61,877 nt of DNA from Bacteroidia bacterium (GTDB taxonomy: Bacteria > Bacteroidota > Bacteroidia > Chitinophagales > UBA2359). The stretch lies in the NCBI GenBank assembly GCA_030427245.1, contig JAUHXA010000042.1, positions 1 to 61,877 of the forward strand, in the 5' to 3' direction. The notes under the pieces are model-generated. The model saw only the letters and a program-made list of their open reading frames with translations. It did no database searches and was not told the origin of the DNA. Of this stretch, positions 3,976-40,751 are shown one piece after another. Both the position numbers and the translations under genes were made by a program. Each line of letters begins with the position of its first letter. The first letter of the stretch is position 1.

Positions 3976-5037
3976 TTACAACTTCACCCCGTTCATATAC
4001 TTACGCCATTTCTCTATCGCTTTTTCCATATCTTCAGGCAATTCTGATTCAAAATACAATTCCTTACCAGTCGTAGGATGCACAAAACCGAGAATCTTGG
4101 CATGAAGTGAATGTCTTTGAATCAACTTGAAGCAATTATCTACAAATTGTCGGTATTTGGTATAGACTGTGCCTTTGATGATTTTATCACCACCATAATC
4201 CACATCATTGAAGAGAGGGTGTCGAATGGATTTGAAGTGCACCCGAATTTGGTGTGTGCGCCCTGTTTCCAAACGACATTCTACCAAAGTGACATACCCA
4301 AAACGCTCTAAAACTTTGTAATGCGTTACCGCATGTTTCCCTCTATCCCCTTCTGGAAAAACGTCCATCACTTGTCGGTATCTCAAATTTCGCCCGACAT
4401 GCCCCGTAATAGTTCCTTCATCTTCCTTCAAATCGCCCCAAACTAAGGCATGGTAACGACGTACAACGGTGTGGTCAAAAAACTGTTTGGCAAGGTGCGT
4501 CATCGCAAAATCGGTTTTGGCAATCACCATCAAACCCGTTGTATTTTTGTCAATTCGATGCACTAAGCCAGGTCTTCTTGTTCCTTCAATACCTCTTTCA
4601 TTGACAGGTAGATGCTCAAAATGGTGCATCAGTCCATGTACCAAAGTACCTGTATAATTACCACTACCAGGATGTACCACTAAGCCCGCAGGTTTGTTGA
4701 TTACCATCAAATCTGCATCTTCATATACGATGTCCAAAGGCATTTCCTCAGGAATTATTTCGTACCGCCCCATAGGTTTGGGCATGACGATTTTTATTTC
4801 GTCGTTTGGGCTGATTTTGTAGTTGGACTTTACTGCTTTTCCATTCACCAATACACAACCTGCTTTTGCCGCATTTTGAATTTTATTGCGGCTATTGATG
4901 CTTGTTCTTTGAAACACATACTTATCTATTCGCTCTGGAGATTGTCCTGGATCTACCTTCAAAGAATAATGTTCATAGAGATGTTCTTCTTCTTGGTTAT
5001 CTTCGTCCATCTGTTTATTTTGCAAATTGTCACTCAT
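3976..5037 (-). CDS. RluA-family 23S rRNA pseudouridine synthase (RluD-like)
   Basis: 353 aa. An S4 RNA-binding domain covers about residues 30-90 (PERIDKYVFQR). The PseudoU_synth_2 domain covers about 100-310, with the catalytic aspartate in GLVHRIDKNTTGLMVIAKT. The family converts uridines of large-subunit rRNA to pseudouridine; RluD modifies helix 69. A hydrophilic acidic N-terminal tail of about 25 residues precedes the S4 domain. It is divergent from the phosphatase-family gene at 5079 with only 41 bp between starts, so the two promoters must overlap. Which uridine is modified cannot be told from the sequence. Confidence 0.9.
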   Translation of the reverse strand: MSDNLQNKQMDEDNQEEEHLYEHYSLKVDPGQSPERIDKYVFQRTSINSRNKIQNAAKAGCVLVNGKAVKSNYKISPNDEIKIVMPKPMGRYEIIPEEMPLDIVYEDADLMVINKPAGLVVHPGSGNYTGTLVHGLMHHFEHLPVNERGIEGTRRPGLVHRIDKNTTGLMVIAKTDFAMTHLAKQFFDHTVVRRYHALVWGDLKEDEGTITGHVGRNLRYRQVMDVFPEGDRGKHAVTHYKVLERFGYVTLVECRLETGRTHQIRVHFKSIRHPLFNDVDYGGDKIIKGTVYTKYRQFVDNCFKLIQRHSLHAKILGFVHPTTGKELYFESELPEDMEKAIEKWRKYMNGVKL

Positions 5038-31901: not shown

Positions 31902-32603
31902 ATGAAAAAAGGAATTTTATTTTTAATGATGGGCTTCTTCTGGTATTCGCTAAGTTGGGCACAATCAAGCAACAAGGAGACAGAACCTATTTTTGACATA
32001 CATAAGACTGACTCAACGATGGCTGTCAATCAATTTGGGATGAATATCAGTCCTCTTTTGATACAAGTATTACCTTTTAATCGAAGTTCAGGTAGAACAG
32101 GCCCTTATGGATTCAGTTACAGTCGTATTAATGCCAAAAACAAGTTTTTTAGATTGGGCATAGGTGTGTTTATCAATGACAATGACCTCGACAATTCGCA
32201 CCTCAATCTGCGAATTGGAGGAGGAAAAATCAGGCAAATTAGCGAGAAATTGCATTTTACAACAGGTTGGGACTTTATCGCTTTTGGAGGTAGCTTCAAT
32301 GTACCAAATAGCTCTTTAGATGATGATGATGGTGGGGTTGGTTTTGGTCCTTTTATGGGAATCCAGTATTATTTAACCTCGCATCTAAGCTTTTCGACAG
32401 AGAGTTTTTTGTATATTGGTACAAGTTCTAATGCAGGTTTTACTCTAAGGGTGATTCCTCCTATTGCAGTGTTTGTACAAATTGATTTTGTCGCTCCTCC
32501 CAAAAAGAAGAGGTTCAGAAGGGATAAAAGAAACCGAAAAACCAGAAATAAATTAAAGAAAAAAGAAATCAATCCTTCTAAACCTTTTATTGAAAAAAAA
32601 TAA
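31902..32603 (+). CDS. Predicted outer-membrane or periplasmic beta protein, unknown function
   Basis: 233 aa. It has a signal peptide (ends LSWAQ) and strand-rich segments GPYGFSYSRIN, LHFTTGWDFIAFGG and GFGPFMGIQYYL, then a long basic tail (KKKRFRRDKRNRKTRNKLKK) that is unusual for a barrel. The protein following it starts 31 bp later. It may be a diverged paralog of the preceding gene. No named family recognised. Confidence 0.6.
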   Translation: MKKGILFLMMGFFWYSLSWAQSSNKETEPIFDIHKTDSTMAVNQFGMNISPLLIQVLPFNRSSGRTGPYGFSYSRINAKNKFFRLGIGVFINDNDLDNSHLNLRIGGGKIRQISEKLHFTTGWDFIAFGGSFNVPNSSLDDDDGGVGFGPFMGIQYYLTSHLSFSTESFLYIGTSSNAGFTLRVIPPIAVFVQIDFVAPPKKKRFRRDKRNRKTRNKLKKKEINPSKPFIEKK

Positions 32604-32634
32604 CTTTATTCATTACTTTATAAATCAGCCTCCT

Positions 32635-33858
32635 ATGAAAAATTTACAAAAATTGACCCTTTGCAGCATGACTGTATTGTTGCTGTCCGTTTTGGTATGG
32701 AGTTGTCAAAAAGATGTGGTAATTTCTTCTCATCAAACAACGCCTTACTTACCTACTTCGGTGTTGAACTATTCACCTACCGACATCCCTGAGCATTTCA
32801 ATGGAGCTTTGCCTTTTCCCTTTGACGTAGATGGCAATTCCATACACGATGATTCAGCTTTGGAAATCAACAGCGACATGGCGACTTTGGGTCGGGTGCT
32901 GTTTTACGACAACCGACTCTCACTAAACAATACAATTTCTTGTGCTTCGTGTCACAAACAAGCAAATGGTTTTGCAGATCCTGTTGCTTCGAGTGTAGGC
33001 TTCAAAGGCAAAGTCACGCCCAGAAATTCTATGACGATTGTGAATCCGATTATGAACAACAACCTTTTTTGGGATTCACGAGCATCGAGTATTCGAGGTT
33101 TGGTCTTAGAACCTGTACAAAATCATATCGAAATGGGTATGGAATCTATTGACAAGTTGTCGGTCAAACTTTCTGAAACTTCTTTTTATCCGGAACTTTT
33201 CCAAAAAGCTTATGGCAGCGAACAAGTGACCGAAAATCGAATTGCAGATGCACTGATGCAGTTTTTGATGAGTATGATGTCTTACAAATCTAAATGGGAC
33301 GCAGGTGTGGAGCAAAATTTTGCGAACTTCAATGCATTGGAAACGATGGGTAAAGAATTATTTTTTAGTCAGCGTACGCAGTGTTCAGGCTGTCACAGCG
33401 GAGTTAACTTTAGTGCGCCTGATGGATTCGGCAATTTTGACATGAGGTTTTTGGGTAACAGCACGGGTGATTTGATTTTTACGGATGACTTTGGTGGATT
33501 TGGCGGAGGCGAATACTTTGAGTCGCAAGGTACGGCAAATATCGGCTTGGATATGGTCTATAAGGATAAAGGGCGAGGAAATGGAAACTTCAAAATTCCA
33601 AGTTTGCGAAATATTGGGCTGACCGCTCCTTATATGCACGATGGACGCTTCAATACTTTGGAGGAAGTTATCAATCACTATGACCAAAACATTCAACCTC
33701 ATTCGGATTTGGACTCAAAATTCAGGGCTTCTAATGATACTCCGAAACGAATGAATCTAAGTAATTTAGAGAAACGAGCGTTGGAGGCTTTCTTACACAC
33801 CTTGACGGATGATTCTTTTGTGAAGGATGTACGATTTTCCGATCCGTTTTTGAAATAG
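32635..33858 (+). CDS. Di-haem cytochrome c peroxidase family lipoprotein
   Basis: 407 aa from the ATG at 32635; the frame starts upstream at TTG 32590. A lipoprotein signal ends LVWSC (Cys24). Two haem-binding CxxCH motifs are present: CASCHK (103-107) and CSGCHS (250-254). The last part has the peroxidase signature NIGLTAPYMHDGRFNTLEEVINHY. Such proteins reduce hydrogen peroxide with electrons from cytochromes, or belong to the related MauG-like group. The length fits. A strong hairpin terminator follows. Confidence 0.9.
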   Translation: MKNLQKLTLCSMTVLLLSVLVWSCQKDVVISSHQTTPYLPTSVLNYSPTDIPEHFNGALPFPFDVDGNSIHDDSALEINSDMATLGRVLFYDNRLSLNNTISCASCHKQANGFADPVASSVGFKGKVTPRNSMTIVNPIMNNNLFWDSRASSIRGLVLEPVQNHIEMGMESIDKLSVKLSETSFYPELFQKAYGSEQVTENRIADALMQFLMSMMSYKSKWDAGVEQNFANFNALETMGKELFFSQRTQCSGCHSGVNFSAPDGFGNFDMRFLGNSTGDLIFTDDFGGFGGGEYFESQGTANIGLDMVYKDKGRGNGNFKIPSLRNIGLTAPYMHDGRFNTLEEVINHYDQNIQPHSDLDSKFRASNDTPKRMNLSNLEKRALEAFLHTLTDDSFVKDVRFSDPFLK

Positions 33859-33892: not shown

Positions 33893-33946
33893 ATGGTGCA
33901 ATTGTGTGATGGAGGTTGTTCCATCATACAATTGCACCATTTTTTA
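33893..33946. terminator. Long-stem hairpin terminator overlapping a stop codon
   Basis: Two 21-bp arms (33893-33913 and 33920-33940) around a 6-nt loop, with one G-T pair near the middle, then T-rich DNA. It lies between two convergent genes. The arm on the right contains the last codons and TGA stop of the minus-strand gene at 33924. Confidence 0.75.
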
Positions 33947-34544
33947 TTTTATTCTTCAATAAATACCGAATCTTCAAAACCAACACCCCCAACAATATCA
34001 AGACCAAAGGAATATGTTCATATCCGGTCAAGGAACGCTTAGCATAACTACTCATAAAAATTCCCCAAATCCAATATCCTCCAACCGTATGTAGTATTTT
34101 CCATTGACGAGCAGAAAGGTAGCGAGCAAAGGTTTGAAAAGAGGTCAAAAGCATGGCAACGACAAAAAAATAGGCAATCCCTCCTGCTAAAAGCGAGGTA
34201 GTAGCTGCTAAATCAAAAACAGGATGAAAAAAATGCTGAAGTGTCCATAAAAACTTTAAGTGAAGTAGATGCACAATCCCAAAGGAAATCCCGATGTATT
34301 TTCGGTTTGACAACAACCAAATCGTGAACCTATTTTTTCGCCAATCGTGTAGGCTCGATGCCACAAATGCAGCACAAAACAAAGTAAAACTGATTCGTGC
34401 TGACCATCTGATGGCTTCTCTTGTAGCTGTTTCATTAAAGCCTAATAAGATGAAAATCATAACGAATAACAGTACAGATAAGCCCACCGCCAATTTTACA
34501 AATGTCCATTTTTTCATTTCACACTCTATTATTTTTGTCCTCAT
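33924..34544 (-). CDS. Ferric-reductase-like transmembrane protein (MsrQ-type haem b)
   Basis: 206 aa from the ATG at 34544; an ATG nine codons inside (34517) is equally plausible. Six or so membrane helices are seen. Histidines at HDWRKN, HLLHLKF and HTVGGYW are spaced as the haem-binding residues of the ferric_reduct domain. MsrQ is the membrane haem b subunit that passes electrons to periplasmic methionine sulfoxide reductase MsrP, which is absent here. It could also be an unrelated small YedZ-like haem protein. Confidence 0.75.
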   Translation of the reverse strand: MRTKIIECEMKKWTFVKLAVGLSVLLFVMIFILLGFNETATREAIRWSARISFTLFCAAFVASSLHDWRKNRFTIWLLSNRKYIGISFGIVHLLHLKFLWTLQHFFHPVFDLAATTSLLAGGIAYFFVVAMLLTSFQTFARYLSARQWKILHTVGGYWIWGIFMSSYAKRSLTGYEHIPLVLILLGVLVLKIRYLLKNKIKNGAIV

Positions 34545-34638: not shown

Positions 34639-35754
34639 ATGCTCTCTAAAGAATCCAAAAACGATGCCCTTTCCAGACTGCAAGCCATCATTGACACTGC
34701 AACGGATGGCATTATTACCATTGATGAGCATGGCATTATGGAAAGCATCAATCCAGCAGGAGCAGCTTTGTTTGGCTATGAACCTCAAGAATTGAAAGGA
34801 AAAAATATCCGTATCTTGATGCCCAACCCCCATCGTTCACATCACGACCAATACATACAAAACTATAAAGAAACTGGCGTAAAAAAAATCATAGGAATTG
34901 GTCGAGAAGTACATGGATTGCGAAAAGATGGTTCTACCTTCCCATTCAGATTGAGTGTAGCAGAAGTACAGTTGGACGGAAAGCGCATTTTTACGGGTAT
35001 GGTTCACGACCTCAGTGATAGGGTTTTGGCTGCCGAAACCCAAAGAGCATTGGAGGAAGAGAAAGAACTGAATGAATTAAAATCCAGGTTTGTTTCGATG
35101 GCTTCCCACGAATTTCGTACACCACTCACTTCTATTCTCACCTCTGCCACTCTGATTGGAAAGTACAAAGACGAAACCACACAAGACAAGCGGATGAAGC
35201 ATGTTCACCGCATACAATCTTCGGTACGAAACCTCACCAATATTCTAAATGATTTTCTGTCATTGAGCAGGTTGGAAGAAGGAAAAATATCACACAATCC
35301 GATTTACTTCAATTTGCAGCCCTCTATTGAAGAAGTCATTGAAGAAGTTGAAGCAATGATGAAACCTCAACAAAAAATTGTATATAAACACATAGGAAAA
35401 ACGGATTCTGTGCTTTTAGACGAAAAATTACTGCACAATATTTTGTCCAATTTACTCTCCAATGCGCTCAAATATTCTAACGAGGGACAGACTATAGATT
35501 TGAGTAGTACGGTTTTAGAGCAGAGTATTACAATTAAAGTCCAAGATTATGGTATCGGAATTCCATCCAAAGACCAAATACGTTTGTTCAGACGGTTTTT
35601 CAGAGCAGAAAACGTGGCAAATATTCAAGGAACGGGATTGGGACTAAATATTGTGAAACGTTACTTGAAGTTGATGGGCGGAACGATTACTTTTGAGAGC
35701 GAATTGAATAAAGGAACTACCTTTACCGTTGTTTTTCCTCGTACAGAATTTTAG
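34639..35754 (+). CDS. Soluble FixL-like PAS sensor histidine kinase
   Basis: 371 aa with no membrane segment or signal. The PAS domain (about 10-125) has the FixL-type block ILMPNPHRSHHDQYI and IIGIGREVHGLRKDGSTFP. His69 aligns with the haem-ligand His of rhizobial FixL, and Arg89 with its regulatory Arg in the GIGR segment. HisKA follows with the phosphoacceptor His157 in SHEFRTPLTS. The ATPase domain has NILSNLLSNALKYSNEG (N box), DYGIGIP (G1) and GTGLGLNIVKRYL (G2). The gene is 152 bp upstream of a response regulator on the same strand, so they are a likely cognate pair. Haem binding and oxygen sensing are inferred from motif similarity. Confidence 0.85.
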   Translation: MLSKESKNDALSRLQAIIDTATDGIITIDEHGIMESINPAGAALFGYEPQELKGKNIRILMPNPHRSHHDQYIQNYKETGVKKIIGIGREVHGLRKDGSTFPFRLSVAEVQLDGKRIFTGMVHDLSDRVLAAETQRALEEEKELNELKSRFVSMASHEFRTPLTSILTSATLIGKYKDETTQDKRMKHVHRIQSSVRNLTNILNDFLSLSRLEEGKISHNPIYFNLQPSIEEVIEEVEAMMKPQQKIVYKHIGKTDSVLLDEKLLHNILSNLLSNALKYSNEGQTIDLSSTVLEQSITIKVQDYGIGIPSKDQIRLFRRFFRAENVANIQGTGLGLNIVKRYLKLMGGTITFESELNKGTTFTVVFPRTEF

Positions 35755-35906
35755 TTTGTAAGCACTCAACAAATCAAATTTGAACTATCGTGTTTTATAA
35801 ATCCACTCATTAATTGCAGGCAAAAAAAACCTACAAAATCAATAGTTTTGGATTTGTGATGTTCTGATTTGAAGAATTTATTTTAACTCATAAAACCCTT
35901 TTTTCA

Positions 35907-36986
35907 ATGTCTCAACAAAAAACCATTTTACTCATTGAAGACAACCTTGATGTTCGTGAAAATACGGCAGAAATATTGGAGTTGGCCAACTATCACGTTT
36001 GGACGGCTGCTAATGGAAAAGAAGGAGTTGCACTTGCCAAACAGCACCTACCAGATCTTATTATTTGCGACATTATGATGCCCGAATTAGACGGTTATGG
36101 TGTGTTGCACATACTTAGTCACGATCAAAAAACGGCGGTAATTCCTTTTATTTTTCTGACTGCCAAAACCGAAAAATCAGACTTTCGGAAAGGGATGAAC
36201 ATGGGGGCGGATGATTACATTACCAAACCTTTTGAAGAGTTAGACTTATTGGATACGATTCGCCGAAGGTTGGCAAAGTCGAGTTTGTTGGGACAACAAA
36301 ATATTGATTTAGAGGAATCTACTAAACATTTATTTCGTCCTAAACAAGCGGTGAAGGCGTTACAGGAATTGAAGGATGAACAAAAAAGATTGTCTGTTGA
36401 TTCAAAGTATATGCTTTTTCACGAAGACAGCTATCCTTGCTATTTGTATTTTCTCCGCAAGGGCAAGGTCAAAATTTACAAAACCAATGAAGATGGCAAA
36501 GAACTCATTACGGAATTGTATAAAGCGGGAGAATACTTTGGCTATCGTTCACTATTTGGAAATGGTAAATATGGTGGTTCTGCTATGACATTGGAGGAGA
36601 GTGAAATTGTACTAATTCACAAAGAACCTTTTTTGAAACTGATACAAGATAATACTCAAGTTAGTAGATTTTTTATCAAACTGCTGGCCAACCGTGTCCA
36701 AACGCAGGGACAAAGATTGCTGCATTTGGCTTATGATTCGGTGCGGACTCGTGTGGCGGATGCACTGCTTTTTTTCTGTGAAAAGTACGAAAGTGGGCAT
36801 AATGTGGCACAAGAACGCATCAGCATGGAAATTTCGAGAGAGGATTTGGCAAATTGGGTGGGAACGAGTAAGGAAACCTTGATTCGTACTTTGTCGGATT
36901 TTAAGCACGAGGGTTTGATCATTGCTAAGGGGCGTTTTATTACGGTGATTGACAAGAAGGGTTTACAGAAAATAGTGACTAAATAA
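35907..36986 (+). CDS. Response regulator with receiver domain fused to a CRP/FNR-type output
   Basis: 359 aa. The receiver (1-125) has the phospho-acceptor Asp55 in LIICDIMMPELDG, the signalling LTAKTE and DDYITKPFE motifs. A CRP-like cyclic-nucleotide-type beta barrel covers about 145-260 (GEYFGYRSLFG). The C-terminal HTH reads SREDLANWVGTSKETLIRTL, with Glu and Arg at the FNR/CRP positions that read the TTGA core. No FNR [4Fe-4S] cysteine set is seen. One protein thus combines the roles of FixJ and FixK. It is probably phosphorylated by the kinase at 34639. Targets are unknown; a TTGA-N6-TCAA site is at 39189. Confidence 0.85.
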   Translation: MSQQKTILLIEDNLDVRENTAEILELANYHVWTAANGKEGVALAKQHLPDLIICDIMMPELDGYGVLHILSHDQKTAVIPFIFLTAKTEKSDFRKGMNMGADDYITKPFEELDLLDTIRRRLAKSSLLGQQNIDLEESTKHLFRPKQAVKALQELKDEQKRLSVDSKYMLFHEDSYPCYLYFLRKGKVKIYKTNEDGKELITELYKAGEYFGYRSLFGNGKYGGSAMTLEESEIVLIHKEPFLKLIQDNTQVSRFFIKLLANRVQTQGQRLLHLAYDSVRTRVADALLFFCEKYESGHNVAQERISMEISREDLANWVGTSKETLIRTLSDFKHEGLIIAKGRFITVIDKKGLQKIVTK

Positions 36987-37108
36987 GCCCTTAGAAAGAT
37001 AAGAAAAGAGAGGCAAGAAGTCGGGCTTCGATAAGATGACTGTGAGACTGTGAATATGTTGAAGACTTCCTCTATGATTTTTTTTGTTTAGCTACTTTAA
37101 TCACCCAA

Positions 37109-37810
37109 CTAATGACAAATCACTACCCCTATTCCTTCGGTCTGCAAAAAGGGACTCAAAAAAGGGATACCCAAATTTAGGCCTCTCAGCACAAACAAAC
37201 AGGCAAAGAATAACATAAAAACAGGTATCATTTTCTGGATTTTGCGTCGAAGTGAGAGGCTGACAAAACTACTCGCCAAGGAAGCCATGACCATCATCGG
37301 CACCGTACCCAAACCAAATAAGGTCATATACAAAGCTCCTTCTACAACACTCGACGAAACCAACGATCCTGCCAAACCTACATACACAAAACCACAGGGC
37401 AAAAACCCATTGAGAATACCAATGGTAAAAAGGGATTGTGGGCGAGAACTTTGCAATAGTCTGCTTAACCTTACTTTCAAATTCATCGTTGTTTTCTGTA
37501 TCCAATTTATCTTCAAAACTTGACTTTCAATATTCAACGAAAACAGACCAACTAAAAATAAAGCCATTCCAAGTCCAATGGACAGCCACTGTTGATATCC
37601 TGAAAAAGCAAAGCCTCGTCCTACCATCCCAAAAAATAAGCCCAAAGTAGTGTAAGTTAGAATACGGCCAAAATTATATAACAGCACGTTAACCATCGAA
37701 TGAAGTCGACTGTAGGAGCGATAGGGCAATGCCATAGCAATCGGTCCACACATGCCAATGCAGTGAAAACTTCCTACCAAACCCACGAAGAATGCTGTCC
37801 AAAGTTGCAT
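37109..37810 (-). CDS. Sulfite exporter TauE/SafE-family membrane protein, cytochrome-oxidase-cluster type
   Basis: 233 aa with about six membrane segments. The start motif FHCIGMCGPIAMALPY is characteristic of the CcoS/CcoH-associated branch of the family (COG2836) often found beside fixGHIS. The second half repeats the pattern (GILNGFLPCGFVYVGLAGSL). The role is proposed to be copper or sulfur handling during cbb3 oxidase assembly. It lies 12 bp downstream of fixH. No ccoN/O/P, ccoG or ccoI lies in the window. Confidence 0.85.
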   Translation of the reverse strand: MQLWTAFFVGLVGSFHCIGMCGPIAMALPYRSYSRLHSMVNVLLYNFGRILTYTTLGLFFGMVGRGFAFSGYQQWLSIGLGMALFLVGLFSLNIESQVLKINWIQKTTMNLKVRLSRLLQSSRPQSLFTIGILNGFLPCGFVYVGLAGSLVSSSVVEGALYMTLFGLGTVPMMVMASLASSFVSLSLRRKIQKMIPVFMLFFACLFVLRGLNLGIPFLSPFLQTEGIGVVICH

Positions 37811-37822
37811 AGTGAGTGAGAA

Positions 37823-38260
37823 TCAATTAACAATCACCTGTTTTTCATCAAAAAAAGTCTTTCCATCTGCCGACCAATTCACCTTGACCTTCCACAAACC
37901 AGTCATTAATTCCTCCAAATTAATCTGCTGCAAATAACTACTATCTACTTCAATGTCCAACTGAAAATCTTTGTCGGCATTGGAAGGGCGATAGAATTGT
38001 ATCATGCCTTCAATCGCTGCAAAATCTTTTGGGAACTGCAATTGAAGCATTTTATCTTTGGCTTGATAATCCATTTGTAGAGGGACTTCTAAGGTTGCGC
38101 TGTTCAAACTGCTTTGCACCTGAACGATGTAATCCTGTTCCTTTTCATAGTAATTTTCAGTCACCAAGTCAATGTCTTGCCGAATACTCATGACTACCAT
38201 AGTCAGAATCATCACTACAAAACCAAGGTAAAGAAAGGTTATTTTGTATCCCCAACTCAT
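37823..38260 (-). CDS. fixH: FixH-family cbb3 oxidase maturation protein
   Basis: 145 aa. One N-terminal membrane helix (about 5-25) is followed by the FixH hallmark VTENYYEKEQDY and a periplasmic beta domain with QFYRPSNADKDF and GLWKVKVNWSADG. FixH/CcoH is needed to assemble cytochrome cbb3 oxidase under low oxygen. It starts 3 bp from the universal stress protein stop and is followed by the TauE/SafE gene, so the three form one likely operon. Confidence 0.85.
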   Translation of the reverse strand: MSWGYKITFLYLGFVVMILTMVVMSIRQDIDLVTENYYEKEQDYIVQVQSSLNSATLEVPLQMDYQAKDKMLQLQFPKDFAAIEGMIQFYRPSNADKDFQLDIEVDSSYLQQINLEELMTGLWKVKVNWSADGKTFFDEKQVIVN

Positions 38261-38263
38261 AAC

Positions 38264-39175
38264 TTATGCTTTTATTCTTTGAATCTCCTTCTTGATAAAT
38301 GGAGGTGTTTGATATTCAGGATGCTCAAGTATAGATTGCAGATTGATGGTCAAAACAGGAACTTCCAAATGATTGACCACCATTTCTGCCATACTTCCCA
38401 TAATTGCCCTTGCTAAGTACTTTCTTCCATGTGTCGCCATTGCAACCATTTCAATATCATTTTGCGCTACAAAATTTGCCAACCCCTTCAATTCACTATT
38501 CCCCGACTCTTCATGCAAAGTACATTTTACCTTGTCTCTACACATTGCTTTGAAAGACTCCATGCTTTTCCTCACCGCATACTGTGGCTCTCTATAAAAA
38601 CTTGGAGTATCAATAGTCAGTAGGTGAATATGTGCATCGAAATGGCGCACAAAATCCAATAGTTTTCTAAAAGCAGGCTTCAAATTCTCATCAAAATTAG
38701 AGGCAAAAACGATGTGTTTGAAGTCAATATTTCCCACCGCTTTTTTGATGGTCAACACAGGGCAGTGCGCCAATCGGACTATTTTTTGAGTATTTGAACC
38801 AATCAGCCATTCACTCAATCCACTTGCACCATGCGATCCCATCACAATCAAGTCAATCTCATAAGCCTCCGCATAGGAAACAATATTATTCAACAGATGT
38901 CCATAAGAGAAACTACTCACTATTTTCACCTCTTCATATTTTTCTGCAATCTGCTCTTCCAAAATATTCAGGCGGGTTTGAATATTCGCTATATCCATTT
39001 TTATTTTTGGGTAGCATTGCTTCTCTTTTTCATTCAGTTCGCTCCAATTGGAAGGCACATCAGTTCGATGATATAAGTGGATTTCGCCATGTAATTTTAC
39101 AGCAATTTGGAGCGCCGCATCCATCGCATAGGTTGCACAGGGTGAAAAATCGGTTGGAACAAGTATTTTAAACAT
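38264..39175 (-). CDS. Universal stress protein, two-domain
   Basis: 303 aa from the ATG at 39175; the frame continues to TTG 39202 upstream. Two tandem Usp domains. Domain 1 opens MFKILVPTDFSPCATYAMDAA and ends IVMGSHGASGLSEWLIGSNTQKI, matching the ATP-binding GxxG-(S/T) motif; domain 2 (about 150-300) ends MATHGRKYLARAIMGSMAEMVV with a similar loop. It is likely an ATP-binding stress protein of hypoxia or starvation. It is first in a probable operon with fixH and the TauE/SafE gene. Confidence 0.85.
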   Translation of the reverse strand: MFKILVPTDFSPCATYAMDAALQIAVKLHGEIHLYHRTDVPSNWSELNEKEKQCYPKIKMDIANIQTRLNILEEQIAEKYEEVKIVSSFSYGHLLNNIVSYAEAYEIDLIVMGSHGASGLSEWLIGSNTQKIVRLAHCPVLTIKKAVGNIDFKHIVFASNFDENLKPAFRKLLDFVRHFDAHIHLLTIDTPSFYREPQYAVRKSMESFKAMCRDKVKCTLHEESGNSELKGLANFVAQNDIEMVAMATHGRKYLARAIMGSMAEMVVNHLEVPVLTINLQSILEHPEYQTPPFIKKEIQRIKA

Positions 39176-39506
39176 CCGCCTGTAAATTTTGAAATGACTC
39201 AATGACTTCTTAGAATGAAAATAAAAGCGAAAAATCTCACTTGATCCTCATTGCCTTATCATTCTGCAATTTCGCTCCTTTTACCAAAGACTTCAATGAC
39301 ATAGCTTATCAAAAAGAGTGACTATCATCATCGCAGCAGAAAGATAGAAAGAGATTGAAGCAAACTAAAATACCAAATTAGGCATTTCTGCAATTTACTT
39401 TGCTCGCTTACAAAGTATTGTTTGAATTTGCCTAAAGTACTATTCAAAATTTATTTTAGGAATTTTGTAGGAAATGAAAATAATGACTTGAAAAAGAGGA
39501 AAAACC
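39176..39506. other. Intergenic region, 331 bp
   Basis: It lies between the stress-protein start and the stop of the acetyltransferase gene at 39507. Apart from the FNR-like palindrome it holds a weak half-site TTGATCCTCATTG near 39241. There is no open frame or hairpin I would trust. Confidence 0.3.
39189..39202. promoter_or_regulatory. FNR/CRP-type palindrome TTGA-N6-TCAA
   Basis: The plus strand reads TTGAAATGACTCAA, with half-sites on both strands. It lies 13 bp upstream of the stress-protein start (39175, minus strand). It matches the core recognised by FNR-type HTH domains and so is a candidate target of the neighbouring fused regulator. One such site is expected by chance in about this much AT-rich DNA, so support is modest. 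Confidence 0.35.
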
Positions 39507-40751
39507 TCAAAATCGAGTCTTACAAATCGGTTTTTTTCCAAAATCAAATAGGCGATGAATACTTTCTAAATAATCTATATCAGAGATAGCGGTCATTCCA
39601 TATTGATACAATTTGCGAAAGCCAATTCCCCCCATTGCCAAAGCCGAAAATTCTCCAACCTTCATACTTACTTCTACTTCAAAAGGTGCATCCTCTGATT
39701 GAACTTTTGTCAAACCTTTTTCAAAATACACCACCGTTTTACCGTTGTTTCCTTCCAACAAATCATCTTCTATATCGAAACATACCTTGATCGTTTCGTT
39801 TCCAAAGTGATGGTCTTTTAGAATTTGGAAGTAGCGTTTTACGTTCACGATTCGATACATTATACCCACTTCGCTCACATTACTTGGGTGGTGTAGGACT
39901 ACCTGATTGTCCTGTCCATTGTGTGGATTGCTCAACAAAAAGTGGAAATCCTCATCTTGTGTATCGAGTTTGATACGAGGCGATTGATCTGCCTGCGTTT
40001 GCAGAAAACTCACCAAAGTTCTCCATCCTTCTCGATTGTGATAGACAAATTCTACGAGCTGCAAATCGTATTTCATCTCGCCTTTGAGGCTAAATTTGAA
40101 GATAAGATAGCCTTTGATGTTGTTTTCCTCAGGCGCAAAAACAACGATGCGAAGTCCTTTTTGCTTCAACAGAACATTCCACTCGTATTCAGAACGTTCC
40201 ATCATTCCGTGATGATGAAGGGCATACCTTTGGTAGCATTTTTCGAGTTGTGGGCGGTCACTTGAGTTGTAGAATCGAAGGTGTTTTTTGGAGTAAAAAG
40301 GTAAGCTGGCCGTTTTCAAAAAATAATGGTCGGTTTTGCTGCCAAAGCAAAAACCCATACGTCGATAAAATGCCAAATTGAAGGCATAAAGGGCGGTAAG
40401 ACAAGCTCCTTTATCGTAGTAGTCCTGCAAAAAGAACTGAATCATTTCCTTGCAGGCTTTCTCTTTTTTGTGTATCAAATCTACTGCTACTCCACCGACT
40501 CCTCCCACGAGGGTTTGATGACCAAATAGGTTCATCGAAAAGTCATAGGCCTTCATAGCTCCAACCATTTTTTCTTGTCGGTACAAACCATAAAACGCTC
40601 TACCGAATCCTTCTTGTAGCGATTGTTGATACTTTTGAGCAGTTTCTTGTTTTTGCTCATCAGTCAGCACATTGAAGGGATAAGCATTGTATTTGATTTC
40701 AACGAGTTGAAGATATTCTTCTTTGGGGATAATGCGTATAGATGATGGCAT
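39507..40751 (-). CDS. Eis-like GNAT N-acetyltransferase
   Basis: 414 aa, the same length class as Mycobacterium Eis. The N-terminal GNAT fold has the acetyl-CoA loop VGGVGGVAVDLIHKKEKACK, with LYAFNLAFYRRMGF. A second GNAT-like domain follows in the middle and a sterol-carrier (SCP2-like) domain at the end (about 310-410). The chain ends ...KTRF, as Eis enzymes end in a Phe whose carboxylate acts as catalytic base. Eis acetylates amines, including aminoglycosides and lysines. Whether this one confers resistance is unknown. Confidence 0.8.
   Translation of the reverse strand: MPSSIRIIPKEEYLQLVEIKYNAYPFNVLTDEQKQETAQKYQQSLQEGFGRAFYGLYRQEKMVGAMKAYDFSMNLFGHQTLVGGVGGVAVDLIHKKEKACKEMIQFFLQDYYDKGACLTALYAFNLAFYRRMGFCFGSKTDHYFLKTASLPFYSKKHLRFYNSSDRPQLEKCYQRYALHHHGMMERSEYEWNVLLKQKGLRIVVFAPEENNIKGYLIFKFSLKGEMKYDLQLVEFVYHNREGWRTLVSFLQTQADQSPRIKLDTQDEDFHFLLSNPHNGQDNQVVLHHPSNVSEVGIMYRIVNVKRYFQILKDHHFGNETIKVCFDIEDDLLEGNNGKTVVYFEKGLTKVQSEDAPFEVEVSMKVGEFSALAMGGIGFRKLYQYGMTAISDIDYLESIHRLFDFGKKPICKTRF

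Follow-up and report, generated by a model that had tools for sequence, protein, structure and literature searches.

The stretch of DNA analysed here (the window) comprises the 61,877 nucleotides of contig JAUHXA010000042.1 of a Bacteroidia bacterium of the order Chitinophagales (GenBank assembly GCA_030427245.1), and the system under study consists of a sensor histidine kinase (HK) and the response regulator encoded behind it on the same strand, in which a receiver is joined to a CRP/FNR-type output (REC-CRP; table 1). No transmembrane segment was seen when the HK translation was inspected by eye. A previous reading made from the letters of the window (the sequence-only reading) had pointed to the FixL block HRSHHDQYI and GIGR with a histidine at the place of the haem ligand; both motifs are present, and the second His of the block, residue 69, aligns without gaps with His200 of BjFixL, whose residue numbering is used for PAS positions except where HK residues are named. 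The PAS domain of HK is 42–50% identical to FixL haem domains, and its likeness to them goes beyond chance, because the best seven matches in a PDB sequence search were all FixL (top E 1e-31), followed by EcDosP. Positions H200, Y203, I215, I218, R220 and L236 of BjFixL are kept, position 238 is Val, and His69 is invariant in group A1 (n = 4 sequences); Arg220, kept as Arg89, is presumably the O2-stabilising arginine of FixL. A structure model of the PAS domain was built with three distant relatives (predicted local distance difference test, pLDDT, 84), and with this model FixL filled rows 1–20 in Foldseek and reached Z 17.3–19.4 in VIA, where the top non-FixL row was 10jx (Z 16.4), also a haem PAS. 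HK as a whole missed the curated NCBIfam cut-off for rhizobial FixL (177 bits versus 850). According to passages of two published sources, it is chiefly the F-alpha His that decides whether members of the FixL cluster bind haem (PMC10468136), and in FixL an Arg stabilises O2 (PMC4263535).

The regulator was the sole match in its own genome that covered both halves, and the receiver with Asp55 fused to a CRP/FNR-type output, as described in the sequence-only reading, is borne out by its Pfam domains. The receiver residues E11, D12, D55, T85 and K107 are all present, and the output consists of the cNMP-type domain and Crp helix-turn-helix (HTH) by which the CRP/FNR superfamily is recognized, the LuxR/GerE output of FixJ being absent from the Pfam assignment. 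Glu323 and Arg327 of the recognition helix are invariant in all 131 REC-CRP proteins, and such a Glu–Arg pair is typical of FNR. Cys54, in the receiver, is the only conserved cysteine in the alignment of 91 relatives, so the four-cysteine Fe-S cluster of FNR proper is not present among the conserved residues. Glu72 and Arg82 bind cAMP in CRP; the column equivalent to Glu72, aligned by eye, is Tyr in 75 of the 91 relatives. Among the best 25 of 106 NCBIfam matches, the highest scores of the receiver came from PhoB/PleD/RpaB-type models; for the CRP part the order was CRP (85 bits), Fnr (70) and Caulobacter FixK (67). Every one of these scores fell well short of its curated cut-off. Descent of REC-CRP from a FixJ–FixK fusion was considered and is not supported by these scores (best 25 of 106, FixJ possibly ranking lower); the proposal that the FixJ-to-FixK step has been collapsed into one protein remains apt as a description of the wiring. 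A single-sequence structure prediction of REC-CRP was unusable (pLDDT 38.8).

Conservation of the pair was surveyed on two scales, a lack of co-occurrence being one of the findings that would have told against the sequence-only reading. For the order, 149 genomes were searched, with REC-CRP called at E 1e-40 or better and up to 13 candidates scored per genome; REC-CRP was detected in 83, and the best PAS matches split into two sets, 25 genomes at 119 bits or more and the rest at 79 bits or less. REC-CRP was present in 25/25 genomes with a FixL-type PAS versus 58/124 others (Fisher p 7e-8, uncorrected for kinship). For the phylum, 394 genomes, partly overlapping those of the order, were searched at E 1e-45 with five candidates scored per genome. 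By hand count, all 21 same-class genomes with a FixL-type PAS carried REC-CRP, the two genes being adjacent in 19 and separated by 15–18 kb, with the cbb3 operon in between, in two; at that threshold and number of candidates REC-CRP was found in none of 51 genomes outside the class that carry a FixL-type PAS. The pair thus co-occurs on both scales. In total, 131 REC-CRP loci were analysed in stretches picked around REC-CRP, which ranged from 3 to 20 kb, apart from the one in the window at 30 kb; a search of genome contigs yielded only 7 loci. A kinase gene lies immediately upstream on the same strand at 112 of the 131, and at least two kinds of cbb3 gene occur in 39 of the stretches. REC-CRP also occurs on six plasmid records (Hymenobacter 3, Spirosoma 2, Runella 1); on one of these, plasmid pHsw1 of Hymenobacter swuensis DY53 (L272, 5410–15041), a kinase of the second type described below and REC-CRP are accompanied by two truncated haemoglobins, a P-type ATPase, ccoS and ccoN, and the paired boxes are 23 bp apart.

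The 112 upstream kinases fall into 37 with a FixL-type PAS (class 1) and 75 with another PAS (class 2, a mixed remainder comprising any PAS match below 95 bits). Class 1 retains H200 in 36, I/V215 in 37, R220 in 36, L236 in 37 and I218 in 30 of the 37 kinases. Class 2 has H200 in 72 and Met at position 216 in 69 of the 75; His200 was therefore rejected as a mark of the FixL type when taken alone, since an aligned His that class-2 domains also keep is weak evidence for it. In a PAS tree (120 columns, quick method, with L025 and two class-2 PAS rows below 30 bits omitted), the smallest well-supported set containing the PAS of the window comprised all 37 FixL-type rows, BjFixL, RmFixL, 14 outside rows and one class-2 row (Shimodaira–Hasegawa-like approximate likelihood ratio test 96), so that class 1 groups with FixL and the FixL-like outside rows, and all of class 2 but that one row falls elsewhere. 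PAS class requires four changes by parsimony on the REC-CRP tree, two of them forced by well-supported branches, versus nine on the kinase-core tree, with at least two forced in each. A class-2 profile was made from 20 PAS domains, every third of the 60 scoring 45 bits or more, in which the His and a Met 16 residues further on are both invariant. Its 14 top PDB sequences were all haem PAS proteins (FixL, DosP and FG214), none with an E value above 1.1e-17, and a LOV domain followed at E 7e-7, which suggests that class-2 PAS domains may also bind haem. In FG214, according to passages of PMC13060918, His156 and Met172 (+16) ligate haem in the reduced crystal, the main ferric pair being His156/His175 with Met172 as the alternative.

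Individual kinases depart from both patterns. In the class-1 kinase upstream of the REC-CRP at 2103–3152 of L246, the haem His is replaced by Tyr and Arg220 by Lys, and this protein is likely a natural non-haem derivative. Four kinases of one genus group (L240, L241, L243 and L245) have a His at position 218, aligned with the Met95 ligand of EcDosP, and a bis-His haem is possible in them. A kinase at 4393–5880 of L091 contains two tandem FixL-type PAS domains (190 and 89 bits).

Operator candidates in the relatives were sought by scanning the promoters of cbb3, Usp (universal stress protein) and kinase genes for perfect palindromes with half-sites of 4–6 and gaps of 2–10. TGAT-N4-ATCA came top in all three promoter sets. 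The relaxed form TGAY-N4-RTCA gave 168 sites at a gap of 4, and any other gap from 0 to 10 gave 3–15; per 10 kb of upstream DNA it occurred 69 times for cbb3, 57 for Usp and 39 for kinase genes, compared with 18.6 upstream of other genes and 0.95 in coding DNA of the same stretches. Of the 135 sites upstream of cbb3, Usp, kinase and REC-CRP genes, 88 had a second site (at least 6/8 bases) at exactly 22 bp, other spacings from 14 to 40 reaching at most 8. The core equals that of the anaerobox, given as TTGAT-N4-ATCAA in passages of PMC7888657. In stretches with sites, a box was present upstream of 386/2005 genes overall, and the groups clearly above this were kinases (49/128), Usp (47/106 and 7/12), ccoS (14/22), HSP20 (11/20), CBS proteins (9/20), D-2-hydroxyacid dehydrogenase (7/9) and a PPDK_N protein (6/7); a P-type ATPase (10/31, p 0.06) and a radical-SAM protein read as HemN (6/15, p 0.05) were not clearly above it. 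Upstream of kinases in REC-CRP stretches, a box was present in 57 of 121 regions. The flanking operator bases showed no clear dependence on residue 322 (p 0.085 for base −1 and 0.009 for base −2, on half-sites that are not independent) or, with no statistical test applied, on residue 326.

Exact tandem boxes were also counted in the 149 genomes of the order. They were present in 57/83 genomes with REC-CRP (mean 2.0) and 24/66 without detected REC-CRP (mean 0.7), the reversed-pattern control giving one each in 3 genomes, and among genomes without ccoN the figures were 17/25 and 8/38. By hand count, 20 of the 24 box-bearing genomes without detected REC-CRP encode a stand-alone CRP/FNR relative of 234–259 amino acids (103–133 bits), and in 10 of these genomes it lies no more than about 10 kb from ccoN; G014, G054, G078 and G131 had none above 100 bits. 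Two of the 24 (G125 and G095) have a frame of 357–366 amino acids with a receiver part 45–50% identical, possibly a diverged receiver–CRP protein. We read these data to mean that the same kind of output domain, together with its operator, would serve both under a receiver and on its own. Because the same paired box occurs with the stand-alone CRP/FNR relative, it is simpler to suppose that a receiver came to control an FNR-type regulator than that REC-CRP descends from FixJ and FixK.

Table 1. Features of the HK/REC-CRP locus in the window.
Feature	Position	Strand	Basis or comment
PAS-HisKA-HATPase_c sensor kinase (HK), 371 amino acids	34639–35754	+	Pfam, open reading frame
Predicted FixL-type haem PAS, HK residues 13–125	34675–35013	+	Pfam, PDB matches, model, Foldseek, VIA
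His69 codon of HK, aligned with BjFixL haem ligand His200	34843–34845	+	Ungapped alignment
Arg89 codon of HK, aligned with BjFixL Arg220	34903–34905	+	Alignment
REC-CRP response regulator, 359 amino acids (Response_reg, cNMP_binding, HTH_Crp)	35907–36986	+	Pfam
Asp55 codon of receiver	36069–36071	+	Column 55 is Asp in 90/91 aligned relatives
Crp-type HTH with recognition-helix Glu323 and Arg327	36750–36974	+	Pfam
SafE-like (Pfam DsbD_2) membrane protein	37109–37810	−	Pfam
FixH/CcoH	37823–38260	−	Pfam
Tandem (double) universal stress protein (Usp)	38264–39202	−	Pfam; start probably ATG at 39175
Predicted tandem operator: TGATGATAGTCA at 39319–39330 (8/8) and a 6/8 site 22 bp away at 39297–39308	39297–39330	−	Upstream of Usp-fixH-SafE; weak alone

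Beside the pair, fixH, the SafE gene and the stress-protein gene lie on the opposite strand, as the sequence-only reading had it, with coordinates and Pfam domains in agreement. Its cbb3 maturation operon was found in part: fixH and the SafE-like gene, for which many relatives also show FixH and further cbb3 genes as neighbours, are the only cbb3 genes next to the pair in the window, and the structural operon ccoS-ccoNO-ccoQ-ccoP-ccoG lies on a separate contig of the same genome (G000:C89). Gene names on that contig were assigned from translations, the COX1 domain alone being confirmed by a domain match, and the fused ccoNO frame has 706 amino acids. Further tandem sites of this genome precede ccoS and another Usp gene, the Usp sites being imperfect. 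Elsewhere around the locus, a CCP_MauG-type di-haem peroxidase is encoded two genes upstream of HK (32590–33858, Pfam); the frame divergent from HK (33924–34544) is membrane-protein-like with several His and matched nothing in Pfam or NCBIfam at E 0.001; and a GNAT acetyltransferase with an SCP2-type domain is encoded at 39507–40751 (Pfam).

Taken together, the locus is read as a low-oxygen two-component switch in which a haem-PAS kinase acts through REC-CRP on genes with anaeroboxes, and we consider this likely; the oxygen-sensing circuit of the sequence-only reading is the best reading of the PAS tree, the fold match, the co-occurrence, the cbb3/Usp neighbourhood and the anaerobox-type operator in relatives. 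The PAS domain of HK would hold haem b through His69. With O2 bound HK would be off, and falling O2 would empty the haem, upon which HK would autophosphorylate and pass the phosphate to Asp55 of REC-CRP. The CRP-type half of the phosphorylated protein would then bind TGAY-N4-RTCA, in most cases with a pair of dimers set two helical turns (22 bp) from each other, and would switch on the cbb3 oxidase and maturation genes, Usp and, in about half of the relatives, its own operon.

Several results weigh against this circuit. At the level of the proteins, R206 and H214 of BjFixL are Asn and Lys in the PAS domain of HK, and the HK and REC-CRP genes are separated by 153 bp. As for the proposed output, ccoN was found in 15 of the 25 FixL-type genomes and not in the other 10, many assemblies being incomplete. 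The operator evidence in this genome is weak: the tandem site of the window scores 14/16, with 0.30 such sites expected per shuffled window; 22 bp is not special within the window, where six of the 16 spacings from 15 to 30 each give one pair of equal score; the tandem site ahead of ccoS is some 250 bp away from that gene and closer to a divergent open reading frame; and no exact box is present upstream of HK. The paired box is also not exclusive to genomes with detected REC-CRP, and among ccoN-bearing genomes the contrast is small (40/58 with versus 16/28 without REC-CRP). Counts of single boxes over the 149 genomes were rejected as uninformative; the 230 single boxes of this genome come close to the number expected if a base composition is assumed, and bias is likely in the reversed-pattern control.

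Three other explanations were weighed. The PAS domain might bind haem and respond to nitric oxide (NO), carbon monoxide (CO) or redox state in place of O2, with the same outputs. Titles of PDB entries name structures of FixL haem domains in complex with NO, CO and CN, and truncated globins stand beside the class-2 pair on pHsw1; set against this are the retention of the presumed O2-stabilising Arg in all but one of the 37 class-1 kinases and the excess of boxes before Usp, HSP20, D-2-hydroxyacid dehydrogenase and ccoS, targets that fit oxygen limitation, and we regard a signal other than O2 as unlikely. Loss of haem altogether, with the likeness to FixL reflecting ancestry only, is less probable still. 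It would accommodate the changes at positions 206 and 214, and the L246 kinase, which lacks the His, shows that the fold can outlast its loss; the retention of the pocket positions in most or all class-1 kinases and the role assigned to the F-alpha His in passages of PMC10468136 argue for a haem-binding domain.

The remaining alternative concerns the output: the pair would be real, with a separate FNR-like protein reading the anaerobox and the targets of REC-CRP lying elsewhere. The stand-alone CRP/FNR relatives of box-bearing genomes, half of them near ccoN, are what such an arrangement would look like. In this genome, however, the best stand-alone CRP match reached only 65 bits, boxes lie upstream of kinases in nearly half of the regions in REC-CRP stretches, and tandem boxes are commoner and more numerous where REC-CRP is present, all of which makes a separate reader of the box rather improbable.

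The low-oxygen switch in the window is thus probably one form of a circuit in which a haem kinase of the FixL or His/Met type drives a receiver-fused CRP/FNR regulator on tandem anaeroboxes. Tentatively, and with less confidence than we place in that circuit, the low-oxygen regulator of the class as a whole may be a tandem-anaerobox protein in interchangeable forms, either self-contained and FNR-like or with the same output domain placed, by way of a receiver, under the command of a haem-PAS kinase; the PAS domain of that kinase may have changed two or more times between the O2 pocket of the FixL type and a His/Met (+16) haem pocket that has gone unrecognised, and the receivers may fix the 22-bp spacing by contact between neighbouring dimers. 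If the low-oxygen circuit proposed above is right, many environmental Bacteroidota-type genomes would share a hypoxia regulon recognisable in scans by its 34-bp signature, a natural series would be at hand in which different sensors act on the same kind of output domain and operator, and FixL-type and His/Met-type pockets on the same kinase–regulator pair would allow a test of haem-PAS evolution.

Oxygen control of the cbb3 oxidase is textbook knowledge for proteobacteria; in the open-access literature, subscription papers lying outside the search, no paper was found on the kinase/REC-CRP pairing or on two-component oxygen control of cbb3 in this group. FNR and FnrN share with REC-CRP the CRP-type fold, the Glu–Arg recognition pair and, going by its proposed operator, the core of the box, whereas REC-CRP is without a conserved cysteine cluster and carries an N-terminal receiver. 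The rhizobial FixL-FixJ-FixK cascade combines a FixL-type haem PAS, a histidine kinase, cbb3 output and the anaerobox core (the last in passages of PMC7888657), as is proposed for the switch in the window; the window differs in having a single receiver–CRP protein in place of FixJ and FixK, and its relatives in having tandem boxes at 22 bp. In the hybrid FixL-FxkR-FixK path treated in the same passages, a FixL-type sensor also reaches cbb3 by a rewired route, one that retains a separate FixK, whereas in the window receiver and CRP are in one chain. A haem-binding kinase heads a pathway to the cbb3 oxidase and hemN in NmpRSTU of Myxococcus xanthus (passages of PMC11841059), its sensor, in contrast to HK, being a protoglobin and its regulator NtrC-like. 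The haem PAS of FG214 (10jx), finally, has in His156/Met172 a +16 pair (passages of PMC13060918) that matches the pair conserved in class-2 kinases, but FG214 is a one-component HTH-PAS protein, and the PAS domain of the window is itself of the FixL type.

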